Source: Isoetes taiwanensis (lineage: Eukaryota; Streptophyta; Lycopodiopsida; Isoetales; Isoetaceae). Taken from it: a stretch of DNA of 64,000 nt. The first letter of the stretch is position 1; each line of letters begins with the position of its first letter. The notes under the pieces were generated by a model that worked only from the letters and a program-made list of their open reading frames with translations, had not been told where the DNA came from and did not search any database. The stretch spans positions 7,912,009 to 7,976,008 of the forward strand of contig JAJEKV010000023.1 of assembly GCA_021234155.1 (NCBI GenBank), given 5' to 3'. Made by a program: the position numbers and the translations under genes. This document shows, one piece after another, positions 1-15,517 of the stretch.

Positions 1-708
1 GGGCAGGAAGCTGAGGCTGAGGAGCATTTTTGGAAGTAGAGGCCTTCTTCTTTCCCTCTTTTATCTTCTGTAGTGCCCGAGCTCTTGATTTTTTCTCGTC
101 TAACATGACATCGAGTTGCTCGAATATCTGTACAAGCTTAATTTCCAACTTCTCGCCTGCCTCAAAGACAATGTTTTATAGCCCTCGCTTCGCCGCCGCC
201 GGCTAAAAGCACCACCGGAAAAGAAGTCGAGAACAGTGCAACCTTCCAGCATCAACTTCTGTACTAGATAGGTGCACGTCCTACTTTCCAACTGATTTTG
301 CACCAGTACTCCTCCCCCACCTGCTGCACCCTTGTCGCACCAAGGTCGATACAGCCAATAAGCTGCACGGAAAACAAATGTTAGAAACATTGATAGTCAA
401 CACGCCGTTGGGCGGGCCCAATTTAAAATGCATACCGGCCGCACACCTCGCGGATCGTGCAAATTCTTTTCGATGTCCTGTTTTTCTCGTAAATGCTTGG
501 GAAACTTAGCATATTGCTTTGGATGGTCGGAATTGGCGAAGCAAATATTTATTTCCTGTACTGATGGCGTAGCCGCTGCGTCTCTGGCAACATACATTAG
601 CAGGACAAGACATTGCAACTCTCGAACTCTAGAGGTAGTCGCAGTTCTGGCCGGGGGGTCCTGGTAGGAACCAACCCAAACACGGCTGCCACCGTCTATT
701 GTCTTCAT
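1..708 (-). pseudogene. DNA-methyltransferase-like domain, C-terminal part of a degenerate gene
   Basis: The minus-strand reading from about 708 to 100 stays in one frame apart from a single TGA near 393. It has a DPP tripeptide in the context GSYQDPPAR near 655. Further on, near 225, comes VLDFFSGGAFSR, which resembles the D-x-F-x-G-x-G SAM-binding motif I. After a one-base shift near 200 the reading continues as AAAKRG, then NIVFEAGEKLE, then a lysine-rich tail running off the window edge. Motif IV (DPPY-like) before motif I is the order known for beta-type, CcrM-like N6-adenine/N4-cytosine methyltransferases. The acidic residue after motif I also fits. DPPA instead of DPPY, the stop and the shift suggest decay. 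The function is inferred from motifs only. Coding blocks upstream (705-3440) appear to belong to the same gene. Confidence 0.5.
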
Positions 709-1502
709 GGCGGATAGGCACTCATTGAGGCGGTCTGGGGGTAATAAATATAGCTACCCAAAGAAAGCCGCTGGTCCGCCATCGTGCTTAGCTGGTCAAG
801 GAATTTTTCATAATCTTCCTTTGGCCATTTCTTCGTATATCCGTCGCATCCAATGAAGCGGGCGGCGTGTTTACCACGCCCACGCACAAAACCTCGCGGA
901 CTAACGTGGAAACACTTGAAAGGTTTGCCACCCTCCTCAACCGGCCCTAGAAGATATTCGTCTACTTTGTCAGAGGGACTCCTAAAAGCTTTCCTTCTCC
1001 ATCTCTTTATGTCCCTTCGCCCCATCCACTGATGCTACTTGCGAACATAAGCATCAGATTCTCCGTGAATATGGGGTGAGCTTGCCTCAAGGCAGCCATG
1101 TCTTGAAAAGGAAGTTTCTTCACTTCCTTCATGTATCTGACAAGGGCCCGCTCCATTGTTCCAATCTTCTTCAGCTCTCCGGCTCTGACTTTCATAGTGC
1201 GTCTCCCAGTATAATCCTTGCTTCCCTTCAGGAATGTGGTGCCATCCTTGATCTCCTTCAAAGAAATTTTGCAGATCTAGAGGATGCATGGACTTTAATG
1301 GGCGACAGGAATTATTGGTGAAAAGTCTAAGCCTATCCTTCACCTCAATTTTTTCTCCCTTCTCGTCCTTCAACCGGTCTTCGTAGAATAACTGGGCAAC
1401 TTCGGTGCACATATTCCACGACTCGTCGTCAAGATATACAAAGTAGTCGTAGTCACGCATAGTTGACTTCTTAATCGTTTGCAGCGCTACAGCTTTCCAA
1501 TC
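705..1502 (-). pseudogene. Middle coding block of the methyltransferase-like gene
   Basis: The block begins right after a good acceptor (ATGCAG, 1503-1505) with DWKAVALQTIKKSTMRDYDY and continues with an acidic/basic stretch (EDRLKDEKGEKIEVKDR). A frame change near 1260 leads to a second segment (GELKKIGTMERALVRYMKE) ending near 1007. A third segment (KAFRSPSDKVDEYLLGPVEEGGKPFKCFHVSPRGFVRGRGKHAARFIGCDGY, split here as read) runs to 705. The composition is protein-like and there are few stops. I recognise no domain in this part. Frameshifts between the segments point to a decayed gene or to short introns I could not place. It lies directly upstream of the methyltransferase-like domain on the same strand. 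Confidence 0.45.
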
Positions 1503-1797
1503 CTGCATGACAAAGAAGGCACCAGATAAGGCGCATACACATCATCTTAATTTGCTTGCACTAGCTGACGCAAATTGGGCGCCCGCCCAATTTCAGATCA
1601 TCCGACACTCAGGTGAAACTGGGCGGGCGCCCAATTTCCCTGAACGTTTCCGAAATTGGGCGAGCGCCCTATTTGCAGCCGTTCCGGGAAATTGGGCGCC
1701 CCCAATTTGAAAAGAGTGCCAACAGGCTGAAATTGGGCGGGCGCCCAATTTCGAACTTGTGGATAGCAGGAACTAGTAATGGTGGTAGTGCACTTAC
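1503..1797 (-). other. Spliceosomal intron packed with GC-cored palindromes
   Basis: On the minus strand the coding block ending DWAFYGKPKKNKAGTPSVERI is followed by a consensus donor, GTAAGT, at 1797-1792. The next block starts after a pyrimidine-rich stretch and ATGCAG at 1508-1503. The 295-base interval between them contains five palindromes. Introns of this size are normal in plants. That the interval is spliced out is inferred from both splice signals and the loss of coding character inside. Confidence 0.55.
1572..1751. repeat. Palindrome cluster 1 (five copies)
   Basis: Five copies of a palindrome with arms AAATTGGGCG and CGCCCAATTT lie at 1572-1593, 1616-1637, 1653-1674, 1689-1708 and 1730-1751. 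The A/T arms are nearly constant and the G/C centre varies in length and sequence. Each can fold into a hairpin in DNA or RNA. All five fall inside the 1503-1797 intron. Confidence 0.9.
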
Positions 1798-3440
1798 AGA
1801 ATACGCTCCACCGACGGAGTGCCCGCTTTGTTCTTCTTAGGCTTCCCGTAGAATGCCCAATCGGGTTGGAGCTATGAATTTCTTCAAAAATACTTCCTCG
1901 TGTATAGTCTTCTTTGTTATGTCATTATTCTCCGGCTTACACCTAACGCATTCTTGATTCTTTTGTGAGATTTCCGCCAGGACTCCTGCATTTCCTTTTG
2001 GCATAGAAAAGAATATCGGGTTACGCCAAGTGCTTCCTTCGGAGGCCATGCCAAAGCTTGTGTGACAAGCGCTTGAGCAACCGTGGTCGTTATGGTTGCC
2101 ATTAACAATTCAAGATTCTCGCATTTTGCGCATCCTCCTCGACTTCTTCCACTTGATTGCTCGCCTGCTCATGGATCGAATGGCACGACATCAGCCGCGG
2201 GAGGGTGCATCGATGGCTGATAAACGATTCGTAGAGAGTGTCCAAGTGCTCTGGACTTATGACCCTACAAGTCATATTTGCTTGGCTTTATGCATCTTGA
2301 ACACATCGACTTCAATCTCGGCCCACCCCCGCAGGGTAGATTCTCTCCCTCGGCTTGATGCTTGCTATGGCGCTTTGTGACAACTCATGTCGCTCTCCCG
2401 AGTGGCGCCGCCACCGTGATGGAGTGAACTTCACGACCGGGCCGGCTACTCTCCTGGTTCTTCGATGATGAAGAAGAAGACAAGGACTCCCTCTCCGTTT
2501 TTTTGGGCTCTGTGGATAACATCGCCCGCTTATGCCTCTTCGACGGACCACCTAAATCTTTTCCCATGCGCTTTAGGGGTTCCTCTTCGACGGCTGGTCC
2601 TCTTCTCGCACTCGCGCATCGGGCGACCTTTGATGTTCTCTTCATTCCACCGAATATAAGTTTAGTGGCAGCTTTTACGGTGAATAGCCTTAGCGGTGTC
2701 CTCGCCTTCTTGATTCTTTAGACGGGCTCCATTTTATGCGCCGCCCCCTGCGCTTGTCTTTATCTCTCACCTTTCTTGTATCTAGACTTAAGCCACTTAG
2801 TATCGTTACACTTTAGGTTGGTTTTGCCCCGATACTCGTGAACAATGCTTTTCGACCTGCTCGTTTGTGCTCTAATATCCACCGGTCGGCAAAGATAGTA
2901 GCCATCCAAAATATCGGTTCTTGATTTGATGCCCGAGCGCTCTAAACTTTCATATGAGTCCAAATACCATCCTTTCGAAGCAAGAATGTGGGCTTTCCTT
3001 TATACTTTTATTCATCATACATGGCTCGTGACTTAGATAGTGGAACTTTATAACGGACAAAAGTCCCATCTACGGTGTCTTCAACGTCGATGAGGAAGTC
3101 ATCCTTGTTCTCGCCGAGACCTCCATGTCGATGACGATACCCGGCCAATTCATTTTTTCTGCCCCTATCTTGCCAAAGAAAAGTAGAAGATCCTTGAGGT
3201 GGTTTGTCCGGGACCCGTGATGAATATTCCCTATCTCTATGCACTGCACTCCATTCCTCAAAGAATCAAAAATTTCATTGGGCACAACCCGATGCCAAAG
3301 AAACGCTTCTTTCTCTTCTTCTCGTTTTGCATTCTCTATTGCAATAGCCTCGCAAATTTGGGTCCCAGATCAGAACCCGGGGAACCCAAAGGTCCGCTTT
3401 GTTCAAGCCATATTAATTCCTGCGAATCCGGAAAGTAGTG
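1798..3440 (-). pseudogene. Upstream coding blocks of the methyltransferase-like gene
   Basis: Minus-strand blocks with coding character include 3440-3008 (IENAKREEEKEAFLWHRVVP, then PNEIFDSLRNGVQCIEIG and NHLKDLLLFFGKIGAEKMNWPG, then a frame change to DDFLIDVEDTVDGTFVRYKV). Others are 2963-2760 (DGYYLCRPVDIRAQ), 2645-2385 (a Ser-rich, basic stretch with KRHKR, possibly nuclear targeting) and 2108-1798 (NPIFFSMPKGNAGVLAEISQ; ECVRCKPENNDITKK). TGA stops in the first block fall where CGA (Arg) would fit, as expected after deamination of methylated CpG. I recognise no family. Order and strand match the methyltransferase-like domain downstream, so I treat it as one broken, intron-containing gene. 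Confidence 0.4.
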
Positions 3441-3490
3441 TTAGTACTTGGGAGACTTGGGGCTGAAGAGGTCTGTTGTCCGATGGAGGC

Positions 3491-3787
3491 AAATTGGGCG
3501 CCCAATTTGCCCCGGGATCCCCGCAAGACACCAAATTGGGCCGCCCATTTGCTTTGGGCCAACTCATGGTGAGCCTTGAGTCCGAGGAGACGATTGTATC
3601 ATTGGGGGCCAAATTGGGCCCCGCCCAATTTTGCCGATCCCCTACGCGATAAATTGGGCCCGCCCAATTTTATATTCATTAAAGTGGGCGACGCCATAGT
3701 TTATATCGAGAGACTTCCTTGGATGGTAGACTTGGGTAGAGTAAATTGGGCGGCTTCAATTTAGTCTCCCAAGTCTACCATCCAAGG
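3491..3787. repeat. Palindrome cluster 2 with a long nested hairpin
   Basis: Copies or variants of the same palindrome lie at 3491-3508 (perfect, 18 bp), 3533-3550, 3611-3631, 3651-3670 and 3743-3762. The last sits inside a larger inverted repeat: arm 3717-3736 is the exact reverse complement of arm 3768-3787 (20 bp each), so 3717-3787 can fold into one nested hairpin. More degenerate GC-rich variants continue to about 3925. The cluster lies just 5' of the first coding block of the minus-strand gene. Confidence 0.85.
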
Positions 3788-3925
3788 TAGTCGTGTTCTC
3801 CGGGATAGGCAACCGGGCGCCCGCCCCACTTTGGTGTCGGGATAGGCAAACCGGGCGGCCCGCCCACATTGGTGTGAGGGATAAGTAAATTAAGGCCCGC
3901 CCACGTTGGTGTTAGGGAAAAAGTC

Positions 3926-5287
3926 CAATGTTTTGCAAAATGAAACACCCTAAGGGAAGCAATTGGGTGCCCTATTCGGGCTCGCATACGTGTATGCATC
4001 CGTGGGGACCAAAGTGAGGCATCTAGAAGATGTTCATATGTCCGAGATGTTATAGCGGGATACTTAATCGTGCAAGCCAAGTTTATATTAAGAAAGTAGT
4101 CCACCTTACCTTTGCCACCGGTGGTGGGGCGAGATGCCATCAACTCCGCTAGAATTCCTTGGTGTACGTGGGTACCCAGCGCGATAGGTCAATGCAGAGG
4201 GAAGGCGCCAATGTGATGATGGCACAAGCCGTCGAGAGACACAAGGCCAAGAGCTCGATCCGGCCGGCCACCCGGGTTCGGGAGTATAGTGCTTGGTGAG
4301 AACGACTTTCGTGGCTAAGAAATATGAAGGCGATGTTGTTTAGCGAGCACAAAGCCAAAGAAGCACGTAATTTTCTAAATCTGCAAATGAGGAGAATGAG
4401 GGGCTTTTAAAGGGTTATGGACCTCTTTGGGCTAAGACAAGTGTCGTGGCATGTAAGCGCTTTGGCCCTTTGAAATAAAAATGGACCGCTGATGGGTTCG
4501 AAGCGTGAGGAATTAATTGTGGACCTTAATAATGAGTGCGCCGGATTTTTGAATTTCAAATCTGCCATTTAAAGCCCCGCCCAAAATTAATTGAGTCATG
4601 CACGGTCGCGACGCGTGCTTTAGGCGGAACTTGTGTTTCAAAGTTCCGGGACGGACACATTATTTCGAAATTAGGTGGGACATTTAACTTTAAAAATTGG
4701 GGGGAAATTACATTCAAATTTTGGGGGGAATTCATGTTTAAATGTAAATGCGCTTCAAACCTGTTGTTTTTTTCCGGCAAAGGCCTTGTTTTGGCTACTA
4801 TCTTTTCTACAAGACGCAAACATGTTCAAATGATTCATATTCATGGCCACGAGATCTCCAAAGGTTTGTGCTGCTCCACAGTTAAATTCGCCATACCTCG
4901 ATGTGTAATTGCTGCAAATGTGATGTGACCCGATTTTATCAATCACGCCTTTCCATTCACGGCTGTTCATTCGCACCTCTTCAAGCACGCCTGTTCATTC
5001 ACACCTTTCCATTCACGCCTTTTCGATGGCTTGACCCTTGATTTACTCCTCCTCATTCACCGGTTACCGCTTTGTCACATTTACATAAACTCTAAATTTC
5101 GGCGTACCGCCCTTTTCCTGAAATTGTCATGCGTGATTTGTGTGCCTCGCTATTTTTCCATTAACCCTTGTTTGTAGTCGCCCTTCCAATGCTCGATTAT
5201 ATTTGTTTTGGGAGCTCAATGATAAATTCCAGTTAGTGTCCCGCCTCCTTAGTTCTCTTAGTGTGTATGTGTAGGTGACCGTAGGTG
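3926..5287. other. Intergenic stretch between the divergent genes
   Basis: No convincing gene is seen here. Short open frames occur on both strands without recognisable motifs. The part at 4600-4750 is A/T-rich with two copies of an AATTGGGGGGAA-type string. At 4935-5035 there are repeats of CATTCACGCCT / CATTCACACCT type, a short degenerate tandem repeat. Confidence 0.5.
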
Positions 5288-5862
5288 AAACCGCCTGATG
5301 GGCAAACCGTATCTCAAGGTGTTTTATCTTGGTGACAACTAAATTGGGCGGCCGAAGTCTCGCCTACTTCATTGTGTCTTTAACCACCACGAACAAATTG
5401 GGCGGCGCCCAATTTGTGCGCGATATGTCCCCGCCGAGCGACAACCTTCTTTTTGTACCCATTGTGAGACCGATCGCATCAATAATACCCTTATATAAGC
5501 GCCGATTCGTTCAAATTGGGCGGCCCAATTTGTAAATAATGGGACAAATTGGGCGGTCGCCCATATTGTCCCTTTCTGTAGATGACCAGATAAATGAAAC
5601 TGTCCGGGTGGGCCAGCTGTATCTCGAATGTGTTTTCTCTTGGTGACAGCTAAATTGGGCGGACGCCGAGTGTGTGCCTACTTTACAGCTCCTCTACCAC
5701 CACGAACAAATTGGGCGGGCGCCCAATTTGTGCGCGGATATGGCCTCTTCAGAGTGAGAACCTTCTTTTCTACCCATTGTGAGACTTACTGCATCCAATA
5801 CTAACCTTATACAAGGGGAATCTAAACACCTCATACGTAAAAAAGGGCACCCGCCCAATTTT
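5288..5862. repeat. Palindrome cluster 3 on a ~210-bp direct repeat
   Basis: Segments 5288-5494 and about 5600-5814 are diverged direct copies. Both contain TGTATCTC or CGTATCTC, TCTTGGTGACA, ACCACCACGAACAAATTGG and CCCATTGTGAGAC in the same order. Palindromes of the AAATTGGGCG family lie at 5395-5415, 5513-5531, 5546-5567, 5708-5729 (perfect) and 5841-5862, with half-copies at 5341 and 5652. The repeat ends just before the first coding block of the plus-strand gene. Confidence 0.85.
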
Positions 5863-5878
5863 ATTGTCCTTGTAACCA

Positions 5879-8800
5879 TTGAATGGGAGTCCCCCTGTGT
5901 CATTTGCATTGCTTTCGCTGCCTTCCTTACTCGATTTTAACACTAACAAATCCTTGTGCAAAGTTGTGTATCTCTTCCTTAATGAACATCTAGTAGCAAA
6001 GGGAGTTGTGGGGCAAATGACACAATGCCACTTCAAGGAGATATCGAAAGGACTACCGAGCGAGGGTGTGGAGGAAGTGTTCAAGGCCACCATACCCTTC
6101 CCCGGCAACCACAATAGCGTAAGCCGGGGGCTCATTCGCTCGTGGAGAAGTGAAGATGCTCGTGAGTCGCCTCTGCTAATGACGCCCCCAAAGAAAAGAC
6201 AAATGGACAAATGGTGGGGGAAGGAGACACAACCGACAAGATATACCCTTCTTGAAAAGGATTGTGAGATATGGCACTCATGCGACTCCATTATTGCCTA
6301 AAGGGATTCATATCTTTCAATCGCCCCGATGATGCAGCTTTGACCAGCCGGGTTTCAAGTTTGTGGGAGTATCTCAGAATCAAGGTTTCCCTCCCCTTTC
6401 TGAAGTGAACATCCGCTGCCGGGGTTGCTTGCAGGTGCCGGGCCGGGATGCTCGTGGAGATGGAGCAATGACCTCGCCCTGCGGTTGACGGAGTAAAGGT
6501 CTCGAGATATTGACCGCAAAGACCGCAACAGAAGCGATATTGTGTCCAGCCGTGGGAGCTCGAGCATCGAAGCACCCAAATTATGAGAAACGACATTACA
6601 CTTTTCATTCCCGACAACCCGAAGGTTGTTAGGCCACCAAAGCTTGCTCGCCTCACCACTCGTAATGCTATCCTCACTTACAGGAGGACCTTGTGTTGCA
6701 AGAATAGGTGTTGTGTCGTTCTCTAGGAATCAAGTTGTTAACATGCGAAAGGAATTCCTTGCCATGAAATCAAGTGATAGGGTTACTTTTGTTTATGACA
6801 TGTTCGCCAACAACATGAAAGGTCAAAGAGTGGGACGACCGGTGCTGCAGGGAATCTCGCTTATGAAAGGGCGCGGGTACCTTGGTCTCGTGGATCTCAA
6901 AGTCGGCGATCCGAAAAATGGAAGGCCCAATTTCTTGAGGGTGCACGCAAGGCCCTAACATGGTAACCGTGGCACCTTGAAGCCTCGCCCTCCTCGAGGT
7001 TGGCATGTGAGGCCGTGTTTTCCATGTTCGTGAGGGAGAACGGTGAATCCTTGCCCCACCGTGAAAGGTGAGAAACGAGGAGGGGATAAGAGAGAATGTC
7101 GAAGTTGCCCGCAATGTTTACGAAGTCCAAAGATTCTAGAAGAGGTTAATGCGAGGTTGTGGCATTGATCGGCAAGAAGGTATCACCGGCGGTTTTCATA
7201 GAACGTGGAGGCGAGTTTCGACGCCGATCGCTCAAAGAAAAAATTGCATTCTCCAAATGCGATACATGTGAGGTGATCCGCACGGGTTACCAAGACCAAA
7301 GATGAAGGAGAGAGGAGGATGTTGCATGATGAAAGAAGAGCGATAGATCGGAGCAGCCCTCGTGGTCGCACACAAGATCGGGTCGGGAGATTATACTCCC
7401 ACGTATCCCACCAATATCTTTGTATTATTCACGACAAAATGGATCAAGCCAAAACAATGATTCCAAAATTGCAACAATCAGAAAGTCTCTCGAGACTTGA
7501 CAAGCTGAAAAACGACATTGACCGGTGCATTGACTCATGGTCATGGGAATGGATCTTATGGAAACTTTGCCCTGGACTTATGGCCGATGACTCTAACTTC
7601 CATGTAGGTTCTTTGAATAGCATCTTGAAGAGATTAGAGATGGGGCACGAGTATGCAGGGAGGCCACCGCCGCTGCCCTGAATCATCTGCCCAAAATGGG
7701 TCTCCTCATTATGAGACACAATGGCCTTGGAGTCAAAGTTGTCACTATCCAATACCAAAGATACCGCTAATTTGCCACGTGCAATGGGACCATCATTGAA
7801 GCCTCTCCCAAGATACTTTATTTGGTACCGGACAACGATCCGACGTAACAAGAATAGGTATGTCTTCCCTATCTTTCTTACCTAGTATATCTTGGTGTGT
7901 TTGAAGAGATTGAGCTAGGGTTCATGATGCCCGGTCACACACATGATGATATCGATGCCTTGTTTGGTAACTTCTCTACATCTTTAAAGAAGGCGAGGGT
8001 GCTCACAATGCCGAACCACCGTATGAATTCCACAAATGCAACTTGAATACACCCGTCCCTATGTTGTTGACAAAGTTCGGATTGGAAGGGTTTTATAGAA
8101 GGCTACATACCGGATGGGGATGATAGATTGACAGTCATAGCACCCCTCTAACTTTCGAGATTCGCTATGAATGGTGATTGGCCACCATGTATTACAAAAC
8201 TAGACCCACTTACCCGGATTGGTTGCCTCACCGGTGGAATAAAGATGTGGAAAGAAAAAGAGGACGGAAGCCCATGATGCCGCTTGATATCCTAAGTCGC
8301 TTCCTCCCAAGAAATCGGTGAAGGACCTTGGCCTCTATGAAAACAATATCCACAAGCATATATTGCATTGGGTTGCTTGTTCAACGCCTAAGAAAGGTGC
8401 TCCGAAACCGCCAACTACTCGCACACTTCACGGCCACGATTGAATATTGGATGAAACTCTTGCAAGAACTCGAACATCAGCAAAGGACGAAGGCACTTAT
8501 AATGACTTCGCCATGTACTAGGCAAGCACAAGCTCCACCTCATGTAGTCAGAGTGGTAGAGCCAATTGCTACTATCACTCCTCCTTATGTCGGCCCCTGG
8601 AAGGACAAACCTGTGCCGGAATTCAACCCATACAAAGATTTGAAGAAAGGTATGTTTATTATGGCACGCCCTGATGATGTGTTGTGCCCAACTTGGGTGG
8701 GCCTAGCTACTGAGGACCCACAAATGGATGATAAGAAGGAGAACTTTGAGACTATTCTGGTGACTTGGTGGGAGCCAATCCCAGTGAGGAACCAAGTCTA

Positions 8801-8984
8801 CCCAGCTAATTATGCCAATTGTTGGAAGAAGAGATGGAGGCCAACGACTGCAAGTGACCGCATAGAAGTGGAGACTATCGACTACGCTTGGGAGCCATCA
8901 AACAAGAAGAAGATACCTAATACTATTAAGATACCCGTGTATTCTGCTGAGGCATATGCAGCACTCGCAGGGGATGTCAACTAG
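5879..8984 (+). pseudogene. DUF7869-like (GHTHxDID family) gene, degenerate
   Basis: Plus-strand blocks recall the DUF7869 family, proteins often found in multicopy loci and suspected of transposase descent. In order: VVNMRKEFLAMKSSDRVTFV (near 6740); CIIHDKMDQAKTMIPKLQ (near 7425); DND followed by NKNRYVFP (near 7835-7870); then, after a one-base shift, LGVFEEIELGFMMPGHTHDD and IDALFGNFSTSLKKARVLTM (7886-8010). The last open block, 8328-8984, ends with GMFIMARPDDVLCPTWVGLA and ILVTWWEPIPVRNQV and a normal stop. The conserved D and H residues would fit an RNase-H-like core, but that is family-level inference. In-frame stops and shifts (for example near 7870 and 8050) indicate a dead copy. It is divergent from the methyltransferase-like gene. 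Confidence 0.6.
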
Positions 8985-9071
8985 TGTATGAAAATGAGTC
9001 ATTCATCCAAGTGTACTAAAAAATGGTCCATAAATTCAGGTATTGTCCATAATTAATGAAATTGTGCTTAC

Positions 9072-9407
9072 CAGAAAAACAATCTTAAGTAGCAAGTTTG
9101 CTAGGCCTTCAAATAAGTTACTTTGTCCAATATCATAGTCAAAGATTGCATATATTTCAGGCGAAAAGGCTAGATTGATGACAAAAGTCACTAGAGATTT
9201 GGTTGCTACCTCCTGGTGCTGATATAATATCCGAGATTTACCTCTGGCCAAAGGCATCAAAACATATGAAAAGAATGCCTCTAGTTGCAGTTTGATGTTC
9301 TTATGAAGATGACCATACAAGATCAAAATAGTGTTGCTGCAGACCACATATAGGACAATTGGGTTAGAAGAGAACCCCATCTGCATTAGGTTCGAGAAAA
9401 GACTATC
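9072..9407 (-). CDS. Exon of a GNOM/GBF-type ARF guanine-nucleotide exchange factor
   Basis: A 112-codon open segment on the minus strand, bounded by an acceptor (TTGCACAG before 9407) and a consensus donor (CTG then GTAAGC at 9071). It contains DSLFSNLMQMGFSSNPIVL, LKLQLEAFFS-like KLQLEAFFSYVLMPLARGKS, YQHQEVATKSLV, and DYDIGQSNLFEGLANLL. This order matches the region before the Sec7 domain in plant GNOM/GNOM-like large ARF-GEFs, which act in endomembrane traffic. It has no internal stop, but substitutions such as an Ile/Leu-rich stretch after VVCS suggest relaxed constraint. Sec7 and the other exons are not visible here; the DNA just downstream (below 9000) is the DUF7869-like gene. It could be one exon of a long gene or an isolated gene fragment. 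Confidence 0.7.
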
Positions 9408-10020
9408 CTGTGCAATTAATTGATATGGAACTCAAAAGAATGGCCACCATACTCAATAGCATAATTAATTAGAACAAGAGCAAATTCTGAAACATCCTCA
9501 ATGACTGAAACATGAAATATGATTCATTGTAGGTTAGATATTTTCAAATTTACAATCACTTCAGTTTGTTGATATCTCGATATTGCATTGCATATTAGCA
9601 TCATAAACAGAGAAAGATATCATATTATTAGAATTTTATATGGCATGTAAGAGCCACTCACCATAAAGATGCCTAAAGATGCCATCTCTTTGAGCCGATT
9701 GTTGTTGCCTCCGCTTTGCATTGCACAATAAAAACAACTGAAAATGCATAAGAGCAGTCCTGGGAATATGGAAAAAGACTGTTGGAAACTACCCATACTT
9801 ATTACTGCTGGTAGGACTTTGGAGGGCTGAATTATCCCCCCAAAAAAAAAAAAAAAAAAACAAAAACTGCACAATAAGTTGAAGAATGGAAGGGCACAAC
9901 TAAATGGTGTTTTACTAGGCAACTGTATGCAATAGAACATAAGCATGGTTCGAAAAGGGTGTCTTTTGGATCTGTTTTTTGGTATTCATAAGAATTGGAA
10001 GACCAGTTGTATGTATGAGG
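9408..10020. other. Presumed intron or flank of the GNOM-like exon
   Basis: No firm gene is seen. A minus-strand stretch near 9680-9735 ends in a strong donor (ATG then GTGAGT) and could be a small exon, but I do not recognise its product. A run of about 18 A lies at 9842-9860. Confidence 0.4.
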
Positions 10021-10857
10021 CTACATATTCTAAACGAGGTGCACCCTGGACTACCACAGTCGTCGGATCTGTCAATCCTACGGCCCAGACTGTATGTTGA
10101 AGTCTCTGGACACCTTTCGTTTCGATTATGCTCATTTATGATTGGGGACGTCTATGATTTTAAGATGTCAAATACGAGTTTTGATGGTATATCGAGCCTC
10201 TATACGGTTTTGCTTAAGGTTTTAGAATATGAAATACGGGGATTCGAACCTCTACCAAAATAACTCAATGTCCTAATAAGACTACTTTAACCAATCTAAC
10301 TAGTGAGTTAATGTGATTATTTTTTATCTTAAATCCATGTTTTTTTTTATAATAACCCATTGAATTGTTTTAGGGATATGGTCTATGGTTTCAAGAATTA
10401 TATCTATATCAAATCCCCCTGGAACCCCCTGTTATTTTGCTACATATTCTAAACGAGGTGCACCCTGGACTACCACAGTCGTCGGATCTGTCAATCCTAC
10501 GGCCCAGACTGTATGTAGAAGTTCTGGACACCTTTCGTTTCGATTATGCTCATTTATGATTGGGGACGTCTATGATTTTAAGATGTCAAATACGAGTTTT
10601 GATGGTATATCGAGCCTCTATACGGTTTTGCTTAAGGTTTTAGAATATGAAATACGGGGATTCGAACCTCTACCAAAATAACTCAATGTCCTAATAAGAC
10701 TACTTTAACCAATCTAACTAGTGAGTTAATGTGATTATTTTTTATCTTAAATCCATGTTTTTTTTTATAATAACCCATTGAATTGTTTTAGGGATATGGT
10801 CTATGGTTTCAAGAATTATATCTATATCAAATCCCCCTGGAACCCCCTGTTATTTTG
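10021..10857. repeat. Tandem duplication, 419-bp and 418-bp units
   Basis: The unit starting CTACATATTCTAAACGAGGT at 10021 recurs at 10440, and a third partial start (CTACATATT) follows at 10858. The two copies differ by only a few bases: TGAAGTCTCTGG versus AGAAGTTCTGG near 10100/10520 is the main difference. Each encodes the same short open frame ending in the same peptide, which is a by-product of the duplication and not evidence of a gene. The near identity implies a recent event. Confidence 0.9.
10240..10302 (-). repeat. tRNA-like (SINE-like) core, first copy
   Basis: Read on the minus strand, 10302-10291 gives TAGTTAGATTGG, similar to a pol III A box. Then 10250-10240 gives GGTTCGAATCC, a perfect B box, 41 bases further on. 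Between them is a possible anticodon-like arm (GTCTTATTAGGAC). The same arrangement recurs in the second tandem unit (A box 10720-10709, B box 10668-10658). It is too degenerate for a functional tRNA. A tRNA-derived SINE is the likely source. Confidence 0.5.
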
Positions 10858-11137
10858 CTACATATTACAAGCATATTAGGCCAAACACATATTCCACAAA
10901 AGACTGCATCTGTCATGCCACGACGCGGATGGCATCTGAAAAATCAGAGAAGAAATAATTTGTAATATGAGATTATCGGACATGCATGGGATATCATCTG
11001 AGGAGAGGGTTTTATCACAAACTAGCCTTTTTTTGCTTATAAATAGGACTACGACCTCAATATTGAAACATTTCACAAATAAACCTACCATAAGCTATCT
11101 TTTATAGATTGCTCCAAAACTACAATATGCTGACAGT

Positions 11138-11407: not shown

Positions 11408-11863
11408 ATGTTTCGGGAGGAAATCAAGCAAACCTGGGTCCCCAAAAAGAGTAATAAAGAGGTGGACACGGATAAAGGCTCTACATCGACGAATTGGAAG
11501 GCCAAAGCAGGCAATAAAGATACGCCTGACATCAACTTTTTAAAGTATCAACCCCAGCAAATGAGGTTGAAAATTGATGAGAATATGGTGGTCACAATTG
11601 AAAATGTTAACCTTTCAGTTAAAATCGACACAGGAGATATCTTTTTGACTATTCCAAAATTTCCTGACACCCCAAAAGTGTGGGAGGACACTAAGTTTGA
11701 CCAGAAAATCGAGAATCTGATTGAGACTGAGGAGCAAGGCTGGAGGATTGTGGATAAGAGGAAAAGAAGGGCAAAAAAGAAATTCTATCAAGGCCCCAGC
11801 AGAGCCAGTCCCAGAAAATCCACTATCCAAGCTGGACAAGTGGTAGGAAAGTATAAATATTAA
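11408..11863 (+). CDS. LINE ORF1, N-terminally truncated
   Basis: An open frame of 151 codons upstream of ORF2. It begins FREEIKQTWVPKKSNK, a linker usually found after the RNA-binding/zinc-knuckle part of plant LINE ORF1 proteins. It continues into a hydrophilic C-terminus with a basic patch (DKRKRRAKKKF). No DUF4283 or zinc knuckle is present, so the N-terminal half is missing. The frame is open back to about 11249 but without similarity there. The stop TAA overlaps the ATG of ORF2 (TAATG). Confidence 0.6.
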   Translation: MFREEIKQTWVPKKSNKEVDTDKGSTSTNWKAKAGNKDTPDINFLKYQPQQMRLKIDENMVVTIENVNLSVKIDTGDIFLTIPKFPDTPKVWEDTKFDQKIENLIETEEQGWRIVDKRKRRAKKKFYQGPSRASPRKSTIQAGQVVGKYKY

Positions 11864-14800
11864 TGGATAGAAGAATTAACTGTGTTACCTGGAATCTCCA
11901 GGGGATCAATAATTGTGTCAAGAGGGACAGGTTAAAGGTTTGCTTATCTACCCTTCTCCCTGATATTATTTTCTTTCAAGAGCATAAAATTCATGACTCC
12001 AATCACCAGGTAATGATTGGAAAGACCCTCCCTCCTGGTTATGAATTATGGTCCATTCCTGCTAATGACTCCTCTGCAGGGATAGCTATAGCCTGGAAGG
12101 ATAACCTAAATTTTTCTGATAAGTATATGGTTAATGGCAGGGAAGGAAGATGGCAGATTTTATTATGTACCCTGCTGGGTATTAGGATTGCCTTAGTTAA
12201 TATTTATGCCTTTAATAATCCAGGTGATAGGATAGGTATTTGGAATAGGGTTAAGAACAGTCTAGATAACATTGAATTTGATGAGTGTATTCTTGGGGGA
12301 GACCTCAACATGGTTACTAATGATTTCATGAAAAATAAGAATTACAGGCCTTTGGGAGCTAAAGAAAAGAAAGCATGGGGTGATCTTATCAACAGTCATA
12401 ACCTCACATTGGCCAGGACCAAACCCAATTCCTATAGCTGGACGGACAAGAGAAGTGACCCTACCCTTTGTCTTCATGACAGGTTTTATTTATCTGAGAA
12501 TCTTTGGAATTTTAGTAATAGAGTTGTTAATCTGGAGGGTTATACTCTCTCTGATCATTACCCCCAGCAATTAGTTATCTCGGATAGGACTATAATTAGG
12601 AAAAAGAAAACTTACTTCAAATTGAACACTAACTTGCTGGATCAAGAAGATTTTTTAGACAGGTTGGGGCAGGTTTTGTCCAGATTTCCCAAACCTGAGG
12701 GTCCCTCGGGTTGGATGTTCTGGTGGATAGTGGTCTCCAAGGCCATAAAAAATTGGCTAAAAGAATGGGGGAAAAGCATTCATCAGCAGAAAATGGCCAC
12801 GCTTAATAACCTGAGAAACTCTCTCTCTACTGCTCCAGAGGCTCTGAAGGACAACATCAAAGCAGACATTGAGAAGGAGGAAATTAAAATCGCACAAGGT
12901 TGGAGGCTTAAGGCCAAAATAAGAGAAATCAAGGAGGATGAGAGGTGTAGTTCAAAGTTCTTCTTTGCCAAGGCCAAAGGGAGAATTAAAAGAAATCACA
13001 TCTTCGATATAAAGGTTGGAGATGAGGTGATTGTGGAGGAAGATCAAATTAAGCGGGCAGCCACTGAGCACTTCACCAACATTATGGGGACCAATGCTGA
13101 CTGTGTGCATAATAGGATGGATGGTTTTATTAATATCCAGCCTAAAGTGACAGTGGAAGATAATCTTATTATCCACAGGGCATTCACAAACGATGAGATC
13201 TTCCAAACTGCCAAAGAAATGGATAAGGGGAAAACTCCCGGACCAGATGGTCTCCCGGTGGAATTCTTCCTCAAGGCTTGGCCTTTACTCGGGGATTGTA
13301 TAACAAGTATTGCTAACGAGTTCAGGGAAAGGAAATGTCTGGATGCCAGGATAAACACTAGTCTGATAGCATTGATTCCTAAGGTGGAAATGTCGGCATC
13401 CTTCTCAGACTATAGGCCAATTTCCCTATCAAACGTGGTTTACAAGCTGATTTCAGGGACGATTGCAAGGAGACTCAAGCCTATCCTTGATAAAATAATA
13501 AGCTCCTCTCAGGCTGCATATCTCAAGGACAGATTCATTTTGGATAATGTTGTGACAACTATCCTTGGCCTCAACTGGGCTAAGGATTCCAAGCAGGACA
13601 TAGCCCTTTTAAAGCTGGATATCACCAAGGCATTTGACACAGTCAGCTGGAGCTTCCTCTGTAAATGCTGCAGAGCTATAGGTTTTTCTGAGGATGTGAC
13701 TCAAATCTTTAAGGCTATTCTCCACAACTCAAGATCCTCTGTTCTGATCAATGGTGACTGTAGCCCATTCTTTCCTTTGAAGAGGGGGGTAAAACGAGGG
13801 TGCCCCCTTGCTCCCTTCCTTTTCCTGATTATTATGGAGGCCCTTCATTGCAAATTGGAGGATGCTAAGAATTCCAATCTAATTCAAGGGTTAAGTCTTC
13901 CAGAAAACCATGAAGGAGTTGACCAATGCCTAAACGGTCACTTTGCAGATGACACTTTTATTATGCTATCAATGGATCATCAGTCTATTACCAATACCCA
14001 GATAATTCTGGAGGCCTTTGGAGATGTTTCAGGTTGCAGGATCAATCCTATCAAATCAAAAGTCTTGGCTAAGGATCAGGTAAAAGGAGAGCACACGGCC
14101 GACCTTTTGGGCTGTAAGTATATCTCCCCTACGTCTGCTTCCAAAATTCTGGGTATCCCCTTTGCGCTAAAAAGTAGCCCCTCTGATATTTGGGCTGACA
14201 TTATAGAGAAATTTCAAAAAAAGGTGGATAGCCTTAATTCGAAGTATATCTCAAAGCAGGGAAGGGCAATTATAGCTAACTCTGTTATTTCCTCATCCCA
14301 TGTTTATCAGTCCTCAGTTATCCTTGCCCCAAAAAAGGTTTCTAACAAACTGCAAAGTATAATTGGCAGGTACATCTCTTGTGGCCAAAACAGAAGGTGC
14401 TGGACTCCGGTGGCTATGGCAGAATGTTGCAAAAAGAAAAAGGATGGAGGACTGGGGGTCATAAATATTGAGAAGCAGGGGCTGGCCCTAGCAGCCAAAT
14501 ATTTTTTCAAGGCAGCTCACAATTTGATCAGGCACCCTGTATCCATCATCATCAGGCACTATTTAAGCAAGTGTTGGTCCCTTGGTTGGAGGCAGGTCAA
14601 AATTGTTCTTCCTCATGCCATCTACTTTCCATTTACTATACCCAAGTCCGTCCCAGCTCTGATCAAGAAATGGATTAAAGCTTGGAATATGACGAAGGGA
14701 TTATTCAATTGGGATGAGGGCCTATCCTTGGATCAATCTATTTTCTGGAACCCGGCCATTTTAACTAACGATCCTTTGTTATGTCTAGCATGTCATTTTC

Positions 14801-15517
14801 CAGATCAGGCAAAGCTTTGGAGAAACAAGGGAGTAAATCTAATCAGGGATCTGTACAATGAAGATGGGATCATACCCTTTGAAAACTCAGCTCTGGCAGA
14901 AGAGGGGGAAACTTGTGAAACTCTCTACAACAACATATGCAATACCTTGTTACAGGGCCATTGGAGGGAGGAGGATAATAATTGGAATTGTCATGGCAGA
15001 ACTACCCTAACAGTTAAAATGGCCTACAGGTTCCTCATGAGGGATAATTCAATGACCATCCAGGAGAAATGGGGAACAGACAGGGATAGATGCAGGAGGA
15101 ATTTGAAGTTTATGTGGTCTAGCCCGATATATCCTAAAATTAAATCATTTATGTGGCAATTATGGCACAAAGCTTTGGCCACAAATCATAAGAGATATAG
15201 AATGCAGATGGCAGATTCTAATGTATGTCCAAGATGCCTGGGACAAAGAGAAGATGAGGACCACCTTTTCAGAGATTGTATTTGGTCTGAGTGGGTCTTG
15301 GAGCTAGCTTCAAATATCTTGGGCTATAATCTATCCTCTATGAGCTCTCTAGACTTCTTCATGCCTCATAATCCGAATGACTGGAGAATTTATATCCTCC
15401 TGTTGGAGGATGTGGAAAGGGAGAAATGCTCTTATCTTTAACAATGAAATCATTCACCCTGAGGCAGTTATCAGGCAGATTTCATATGATATTAAATGGA
15501 TTAACGATGCCATCTAA
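11863..15517 (+). CDS. LINE ORF2: AP-type endonuclease and reverse transcriptase
   Basis: The frame is open for 1192 codons to 15441. Residues 1-235 form an exonuclease-endonuclease-phosphatase domain (VTWNLQGINN near 9, FFQEH near 38, GGDLNMV near 145, SDHYP near 232). It nicks target DNA. The reverse transcriptase spans about 460-760, with SLSNVVYKLISG, LKLDITKAFDTVSW, GVKRGCPLAPFLF and FADD (13942-13953, residue 694) in place of the common YADD. A zf-RVT domain lies near residues 1085-1150 (CPRCLGQREDEDHLFRDC). At about 15400-15410 a one-base shift breaks the frame. The other frame goes on with WKGRNALIFNNEIIHPE to a TAA at 15515-15517, the usual C-terminus of plant LINEs. The protein is thus slightly truncated as it stands. 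Confidence 0.9.

Follow-up and report, generated by a model that had tools for sequence, protein, structure and literature searches.

A DUF7869-type DNA transposon of Isoetes taiwanensis whose second gene begins with a histone H3-like tail and may counter silencing

Among described systems, those closest to the element reported here are, going by the cited passages of their sources, the VANC proteins, whose binding motifs stand in tandem in noncoding regions and vary from one related family to another (PMC10398659), the Kyakuja, Dileera and Zisupton (KDZ) DNA transposons, in which a TET/JBP DNA-modification gene adjoins the transposase gene and for which the target-site duplication (TSD) of Zisupton is 8 bp (PMC12730594), and the H3K9M histone tail, which traps the H3K9 methyltransferase Clr4 in fission yeast and which, as a peptide, binds G9a (PMC5030085). 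The present analysis concerns a stretch of 64,000 nucleotides from Isoetes taiwanensis (contig JAJEKV010000023.1, positions 7,912,009 to 7,976,008 of the forward strand), referred to as the window, at the left edge of which lies a decayed copy of a DNA transposon of the cut-and-paste type; that this is a transposon is near certain. It harbours a DUF7869-type gene (gene 3), the predicted transposase gene, and, divergent from it, an accessory gene (gene 2) whose reading frame begins with the first eight residues of histone H3. The gene 2 product may bind palindromes within the element and display its tail as a decoy, thereby protecting the element from silencing.

The element was delimited by the ends common to its copies and by a scan for terminal inverted repeats (TIRs), and extends beyond the left edge of the window:

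G000:C1027 7908574-7921077: whole element, 12,504 bp
1..9069, no strand assigned: part of the transposon within the window, its left end lying 3,434 bp outside
Starting at C1027:7908574, outside the window: left TIR, 25 bp, AAGCATAATTTCATTAATTGTGGAC
9045..9069: right TIR, 25 bp, GTCCATAATTAATGAAATTGTGCTT
9070..9073: TSD ACCA, the other copy being at C1027:7908570-7908573

Read as its complement, AAGCACAATTTCATTAATTATGGAC, the right end forms an inverted repeat with the left end. The initial annotation of this DNA had bounded the feature at positions 1-8984, which is corrected by the actual right end at 9069 and the left end approximately 3.4 kb outside the window, while its proposal of a large DNA transposon is borne out by shared ends, TIRs, 4-bp TSDs and one empty site. 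Copies were compared within the source genome of the window (1.66 Gb). The similarity of the relatives C1067, C1034 and C908 to the window stops at 9069/9070, which indicates that the DUF7869 gene is part of a repeat that terminates at a definite point, and a genome-wide search with the right-end sequence at no more than 2 mismatches, a threshold that also admits left ends, returned 470 forward and 507 reverse matches (977), as compared to 0 for the sequence read backwards. Ten copies of this family, designated family A, were sampled (the window copy, c1067, c1034, c908, c1055, c1066, c1033, c908b, c1078 and c1063), and both ends were recognised in 8 of the 10, each end being 0-5 mismatches from the nearer 25-bp end of the window copy; the right end of c1055 was unrecognised and the left end of c1067 lay outside the retrieved sequence. 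All eight copies with both ends are flanked by a 4-bp TSD (ACCA, ATAT, AATA, AATA, TGCT, AAAA, GACT and TAGG), so that the common ends, TIRs and TSDs which the initial annotation had proposed to look for were all found. The empty-site test covered one insertion, that of c1066, for which the flanks were joined, with the element and one of the TSDs removed, and compared with the genome; all 40 scored matches, the best 40 of 2,081 rough candidates, span the junction, the best of them with 99% identity over 240 of 240 bases. The c1066 copy is inserted in another repeat, whose open reading frame (ORF) resembles reverse transcriptase by eye, and in the C1067 copy (L002+L006) the segment corresponding to window 2618-6244 is present twice, with 4152-6244 present a third time, representing an internal duplication.

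Besides gene 2, the element encodes the predicted transposase and a small protein:

5966..8984, plus strand: gene 3, decayed, DUF7869-type transposase, located by tblastn with an open relative of 1074 aa and by PF25273
C1027:7908847-7909243, left of the window: small ORF, located by tblastn

The window copy of gene 3 matches PF25273 (Pfam) at 7858-8046 (E 5.3e-16), while in c1055 and c1063 the gene forms open stop-to-stop frames of 1074 and 1075 codons, respectively, and contains the DUF7869 domain (E 4.1e-39 and 1.1e-38). The acidic motifs HDKMDQAK, LQLDNASGQNKN and GHTHxDID of these open frames may be read as a DDE-like set, and we infer that the DUF7869 protein is the transposase of the element. 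Assignment to MuDR/VANDAL was rejected, as no MULE transposase match was obtained and DUF7869 alone passed the Pfam cut-off in the transposase frames of c1063 and c1055. Membership of KDZ/Zisupton was likewise rejected on account of the 4-bp TSD and of Pfam scans in which no KDZ family appeared (c1063 at E <=10, c1055 at E <=0.01); Pfam holds a KDZ model. The small ORF, of approximately 165 aa and near the left end, starts MV.TRR, is partly broken and was detected by tblastn in 8 of the 10 family A copies (the left extension of the window copy, c1034, c908, c1055, c1066, c1033, c908b and c1078), c1066 carrying two diverged copies in tandem. It was not found by tblastn in c1063, in the retrieved part of c1067 or in four loci of a sister family (family B, see below), and it gave no Pfam match.

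The pairing of genes 2 and 3 is a recurrent one. A divergent DUF7869 match was present within 20 kb of 37 of the 122 gene-2 matches and a single neighbour pair was arranged otherwise, as compared to a mean of 0.055 and a maximum of 1 in 200 draws of a position-shift control; the 122 matches derive from 2,894 rough candidates and include a few fragments of one locus, and as both match lists are partial the number of divergent pairs is at least 37. The initial annotation had described the two genes as lying back to back, as decayed in similar fashion and as involving a multicopy DUF7869 gene, and had advised a search for other loci with both. Each of these points held within this genome, with a minus-strand gene at 1-3411 carrying a methyltransferase-like motif, a plus-strand DUF7869 gene at 5966-8984, and 152 scored genome matches (itself included) for the plus-strand ORF at 8322-8984. 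No relatives of gene 2 or of the DUF7869 gene were found in viral contigs.

Gene 2 comprises three exons separated by GT-AG introns, which occupy the same places in c1033, c1063, c1066, c1078 and the decayed window copy:

1798..3411, minus strand: exon 1, decayed, located by tblastn with the c1066 protein, splice donor GTAAGT
3385..3411, minus strand: decayed codons of the H3-like tail, ATG GCT TGA ACA AAG CGG ...
1503..1797, minus strand: intron 1, with a palindrome array at 1572-1751
436..1502, minus strand: exon 2, decayed, by eye the region of DNA methyltransferase motif IV
363..435, minus strand: intron 2, with one degenerate palindrome
1..362, minus strand: exon 3, with the motif I-like VLDFFSGGAFS, continuing at least 436 bases past the left edge of the window

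Exon 1 specifies, in order, the histone-H3-like N-terminus, a conserved domain, a basic linker and a ParB-like region. In the window gene 2 is interrupted by the TGA that follows ATG GCT, each of the two genes needs several frames, and no copy of gene 2 without any break was encountered among the copies read.

The gene 2 frame begins MARTKQTAR in c1067, c908, c1033, c908b and c1078, MARTKSTARKPG in c1063 and MARIKKTARIPG in c1066, the start of c1055 being damaged. MARTKQTAR is the tail sequence of histone H3, in which position 9 is the silencing lysine. An alanine in second place predicts that the methionine is cleaved off, as happens in H3, which would leave MARTKQTARVPG as the tail peptide. 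A stop is located six codons upstream of the methionine in c1033, c908b and c1078, supporting this methionine as the start of gene 2 and an N-terminal position of the tail, and the predicted exposed N-terminus of the protein corresponds to H3 residues 1-8. Conservation was assessed in 40 N-termini, picked from 150 rows to represent identities of 47-95% (L057 among them is c1067 counted again); rows were chosen whose match starts at query residue 1, so that copies lacking the tail are under-counted. The H3 residue was present at A1 in 40, R2 in 38, T3 in 37, K4 in 40, Q5 in 36, T6 in 38, A7 in 35 and R8 in 36 of these, while position 9 was occupied by V (28), L (5), M (5), A (1) or C (1) and by K in none. 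Across 20 chosen representatives the ratio of nonsynonymous to synonymous differences (pN/pS) rose from 0.09 in codons 2-9 through 0.38 in codons 10-12 to 0.46 in codons 13-22, at pS values of 0.70, 0.68 and 0.63, respectively, and all 47 sequences together gave ratios of 0.11, 0.42 and 0.52. The tail is under strong purifying selection, its residues staying fixed through synonymous changes that include switches between CGN and AGR codons.

Palindromes in the introns and between the genes, also remarked upon at the outset, proved to be strongly enriched. At no more than 1 mismatch AAATTGGGCG has 34 matches in the window as compared to 4.26 expected, a number reached by 0 of 100 shuffles, and 32 of the 34 are situated at or below window position 6933. 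The 20-bp palindrome AATTGGGCG-NN-CGCCCAATT, counted with up to 3 substitutions and a spacer of 0-4, occurs 217 times inside the ten family A copies (the bounds of c1067 and c1055 being partly assumed) and is absent from 48.5 kb of flanking DNA. In the window two arrays precede the genes:

3491..3752: palindromes upstream of gene 2
5341..5861: palindromes upstream of gene 3

None of the 29 palindromes of c1033 falls within a modelled exon of gene 2 or gene 3; they occupy intron 1, the space between the genes and the region preceding gene 3, a single one lying just past gene 2, and they are regularly spaced at approximately 70 and 52 bp.

The body of gene 2 appears to be related to DNA methyltransferases. 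Exon 3 holds ..LVRKFMLEGCSVLDFFSGGSFSRAAMCEGYKSTAFEIDE.., and weak DNA methyltransferase matches fall where motif I (the SAM site) would be expected after motif IV, namely TIGR00095 at E 0.0087 and PHROG DNA methyltransferases at E 0.0015 (for the c1033 relative) and 0.0017; for family A, NCBIfam and PHROGs yielded no more than weak methyltransferase matches. When the motif X/I region was aligned by hhalign to eight beta-class enzymes, E 5.6e-4 and a probability of 30% were obtained, as compared to E 0.22 and 0.49 for mismatched controls. A PDB sequence search with gene-2 profiles gave 11 weak matches, headed by unrelated ClpB homologues (E 0.05-0.21, in another region) and including RsrI at E 0.26, and no match for the ParB-like region; ParB itself was not matched in family A, which in this respect gave phrog_21182 (unknown function, E 0.0088) only. 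Motif IV (D/N/S-x-P-Y) is absent from family A, its place reading NTSA, VTSA or NTFA in all eight readable copies. We infer that gene 2 of family A descends from a methyltransferase of the beta-class type and is dead as an enzyme.

A second multicopy transposon family in the same genome offers a comparison:

L073-L078 (G000:C976, C1039, C1051, C1066): family B loci, with a bacterial-type N6/N4 methyltransferase

PF01555 (N6_N4_Mtase) is above cut-off in 150 of 150 scored matches, the best 150 of 1,443 candidates, and the four loci read (L073-L076) are those of family B. Each of the four has DLPY or DIPY, an intact-looking motif IV, together with DAFSGSGTT, and alignment of the family B profile to beta-class enzymes extends over 225 columns (E 2.6e-17). 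Two extended copies, C1051 and C976, have TIRs of 33-34 bp and 4-bp TSDs read as ATAT and TTAA; in both, the methyltransferase gene is accompanied by a divergently oriented DUF7869 gene (E 4.5e-42 and 6.6e-42). The target sites of these two copies look palindromic around the TSD (TTCTC-ATAT-GAGAA and TGGC-TTAA-GGCA); the family A TSDs do not, ATAT apart. At L076:6329-9172 we also observed a DUF7869-like gene approximately 30% identical to that of family A (tblastn E 4e-86) and in a different orientation to the methyltransferase gene, which probably represents a third family.

Family B has a palindrome of its own, AGTGTATTCCGGAATACACT, with 2-11 copies in each of the four loci. Three of the four (L074, L075 and L076) carry it in the intron that separates the ParB-like exon from the methyltransferase exon, L073 and L075 have it in the intergenic region, and in B976 it occurs once near the right end. 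The family A palindrome has 0 occurrences in the four family B loci and the family B palindrome 0 in family A, and the places of the arrays are largely kept between the families while the motif changes, a pattern also described for VANC targets (PMC10398659). A ParB-like region before the family B methyltransferase is suggested by phrog_723 (E 0.018, L073 only) and by DUF6551 in L075 (E 0.0023, below its cut-off). No first exon could be located for the family B methyltransferase gene, and a six-frame look at L073-L076 revealed no ARTK-type tail at the gene start. Families A and B are weakly co-linear over 163 columns (E 0.019, probability 2.4%), VVNTSAR of A standing opposite VVADLPY of B where the alignment was extended by eye.

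On this basis we propose that gene 2 encodes an accessory protein from an ancestor that joined a ParB-like part to a beta-class DNA methyltransferase, in which methylation would have been lost and sequence-specific DNA binding kept. The protein would bind the element's own palindromes, and the N-terminal copy of the H3 tail that it displays would compete with real H3 for the readers or enzymes of transposon silencing. Replacement of lysine by V, L or M at position 9 would prevent the tail from serving as a substrate for silencing, the M copies possibly acting as an inhibitor, with the outcome that silencing would be blocked locally, at the element only. Candidate targets are the readers or enzymes of unmethylated H3K4, with which the almost complete conservation of residues 1-4 would agree, and the H3K9 methyltransferases, which would fit the loss of K9; the tail might alternatively serve in steering integration. 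We regard element-specific anti-silencing of this kind as evenly poised between right and wrong. Several observations weigh against it: the palindromes could equally be transposase-binding sites; the residue after position 9 is P in 28 of the 40 N-termini, unlike the S of H3; c1063 keeps K at position 9; V is the commonest residue there, and inhibition of an H3K9 methyltransferase by V is only putative; the scores for methyltransferase descent of family A (E 5.6e-4, 30%; E 0.019, 2.4%) are weak; and the alignment of the ParB-like regions of A and B (E 0.11) is not significant and does not improve on mismatched controls (0.22 and 0.49). More tentative is the view of a DNA transposon superfamily in which a captured bacterial-type ParB-methyltransferase would have become, in family A, a dead histone decoy guided by the palindromes, whose H3 tail with its replaced lysine would jam the H3K9/DNA-methylation loop of the host at the element alone, and, in family B, a live adenine or N4-cytosine methyltransferase marking its own, different palindromes.

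The alternative that survives best, though we judge it unlikely, is that the palindromes are bound by the transposase or by a regulator of transcription on which excision depends, and that gene 2 aids transposition, its tail tethering the complex to readers or writers of H3K4 and so choosing the target chromatin. The palindromes flank both promoters as well as occurring in introns, a small number are close to an end of the element (148 bp inward of the left end in c1063 and approximately 430 bp inward of the right end in B976), and K4 is kept in 40 of 40 N-termini, all of which would suit such a role; most arrays are interior, however, the motif is wholly different between A and B, as in the VANC case, and the target data amount to 10 TSDs. 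That gene 2 is instead a working DNA methyltransferase which methylates the palindromes of the element is improbable: speaking for it are the motif I resemblance in family A, the PF01555 domain of family B, where all four loci read have DLPY or DIPY, and the 150 of 150 scored PF01555 matches in the genome that pass, whereas in family A the motif IV place never reads D-x-P-Y. The initial annotation had supposed that the partner of the DUF7869 gene modifies DNA. Because the catalytic motif is lost in 8 of 8 copies such a role is unlikely for family A, which has an H3-like tail instead, and it is possible for family B with its DLPY or DIPY. We consider it very improbable that the H3-like tail is a mere nuclear import signal or a product of chance; the stretch is basic, as such a signal might be, yet eight H3 residues directly follow the methionine and are fixed despite the codon switches described above. 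A host gene pair lying side by side, for which the introns and nothing else speak, is refuted by the 977 end matches, more than 100 scored matches per gene, shared ends, TSDs and the empty site.

To the right, the element adjoins the exon that had been indicated initially as GNOM-like, with which its match to PF12783 (E 2.8e-11) is in keeping:

9114-9416 (ORF 9036-9431), minus strand: exon with a Mon2/Sec7/BIG1 HUS domain (PF12783, GNOM-like), the match lying just outside the element

Further into the window, 10020-10866 is a tandem duplication with a unit of approximately 419 bp and 99.5% identity, and 11857-15441 contains an open frame of 1194 aa with endonuclease/exonuclease, reverse transcriptase and zf-RVT domains, representing an element of the long interspersed nuclear element (LINE) type.

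DUF7869, for which Pfam states no function, gains from these results a likely job as a transposase, along with known ends and a known TSD length. Histone mimicry by a transposon against silencing becomes testable, given a fixed tail of 8 residues and candidate target palindromes, and family B, for which the search revealed no tail of this kind, offers a possible natural control. Debate exists over DNA methylation other than 5-methylcytosine (non-5mC) in large eukaryotic genomes, and the high-copy bacterial-type N6/N4 methyltransferase genes of such elements would bear on it. The openly licensed PMC literature searched does not mention DUF7869, and among the matches listed there, in the parts of the papers that these cover, no such element and no transposon-encoded H3 tail was present. 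The element is a DNA transposon of a kind for which no name was found, and the mechanism proposed for it would be new.

When set against known systems, as far as the cited passages describe them, the element most resembles VANDAL (MuDR-type) transposons of Arabidopsis and their VANC proteins in combining an accessory protein with arrays of a short noncoding motif that differs between families (PMC10398659, PMC5735166), and departs from them in its 4-bp TSD, its palindromic motif, its H3-like tail and the seemingly methyltransferase-derived body of its accessory protein. It shares with KDZ transposons a DNA-modification-type gene next to the transposase, here a methyltransferase relative and not TET/JBP. 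The likeness to beta-class N6/N4 methyltransferases (PF01555; RsrI, YhdJ) covers, weakly, the motif X/I region in family A and, strongly, 225 columns in family B, family A differing from these enzymes by its missing motif IV, its H3-like tail and its introns. As in the H3K9M histone and in EZHIP, a K27M-like inhibitor, an H3-like peptide has its target lysine replaced (PMC5030085, PMC6513997), the tail described here being, unlike those, encoded by a transposon, with mostly V at position 9 and with an inhibition that is putative.

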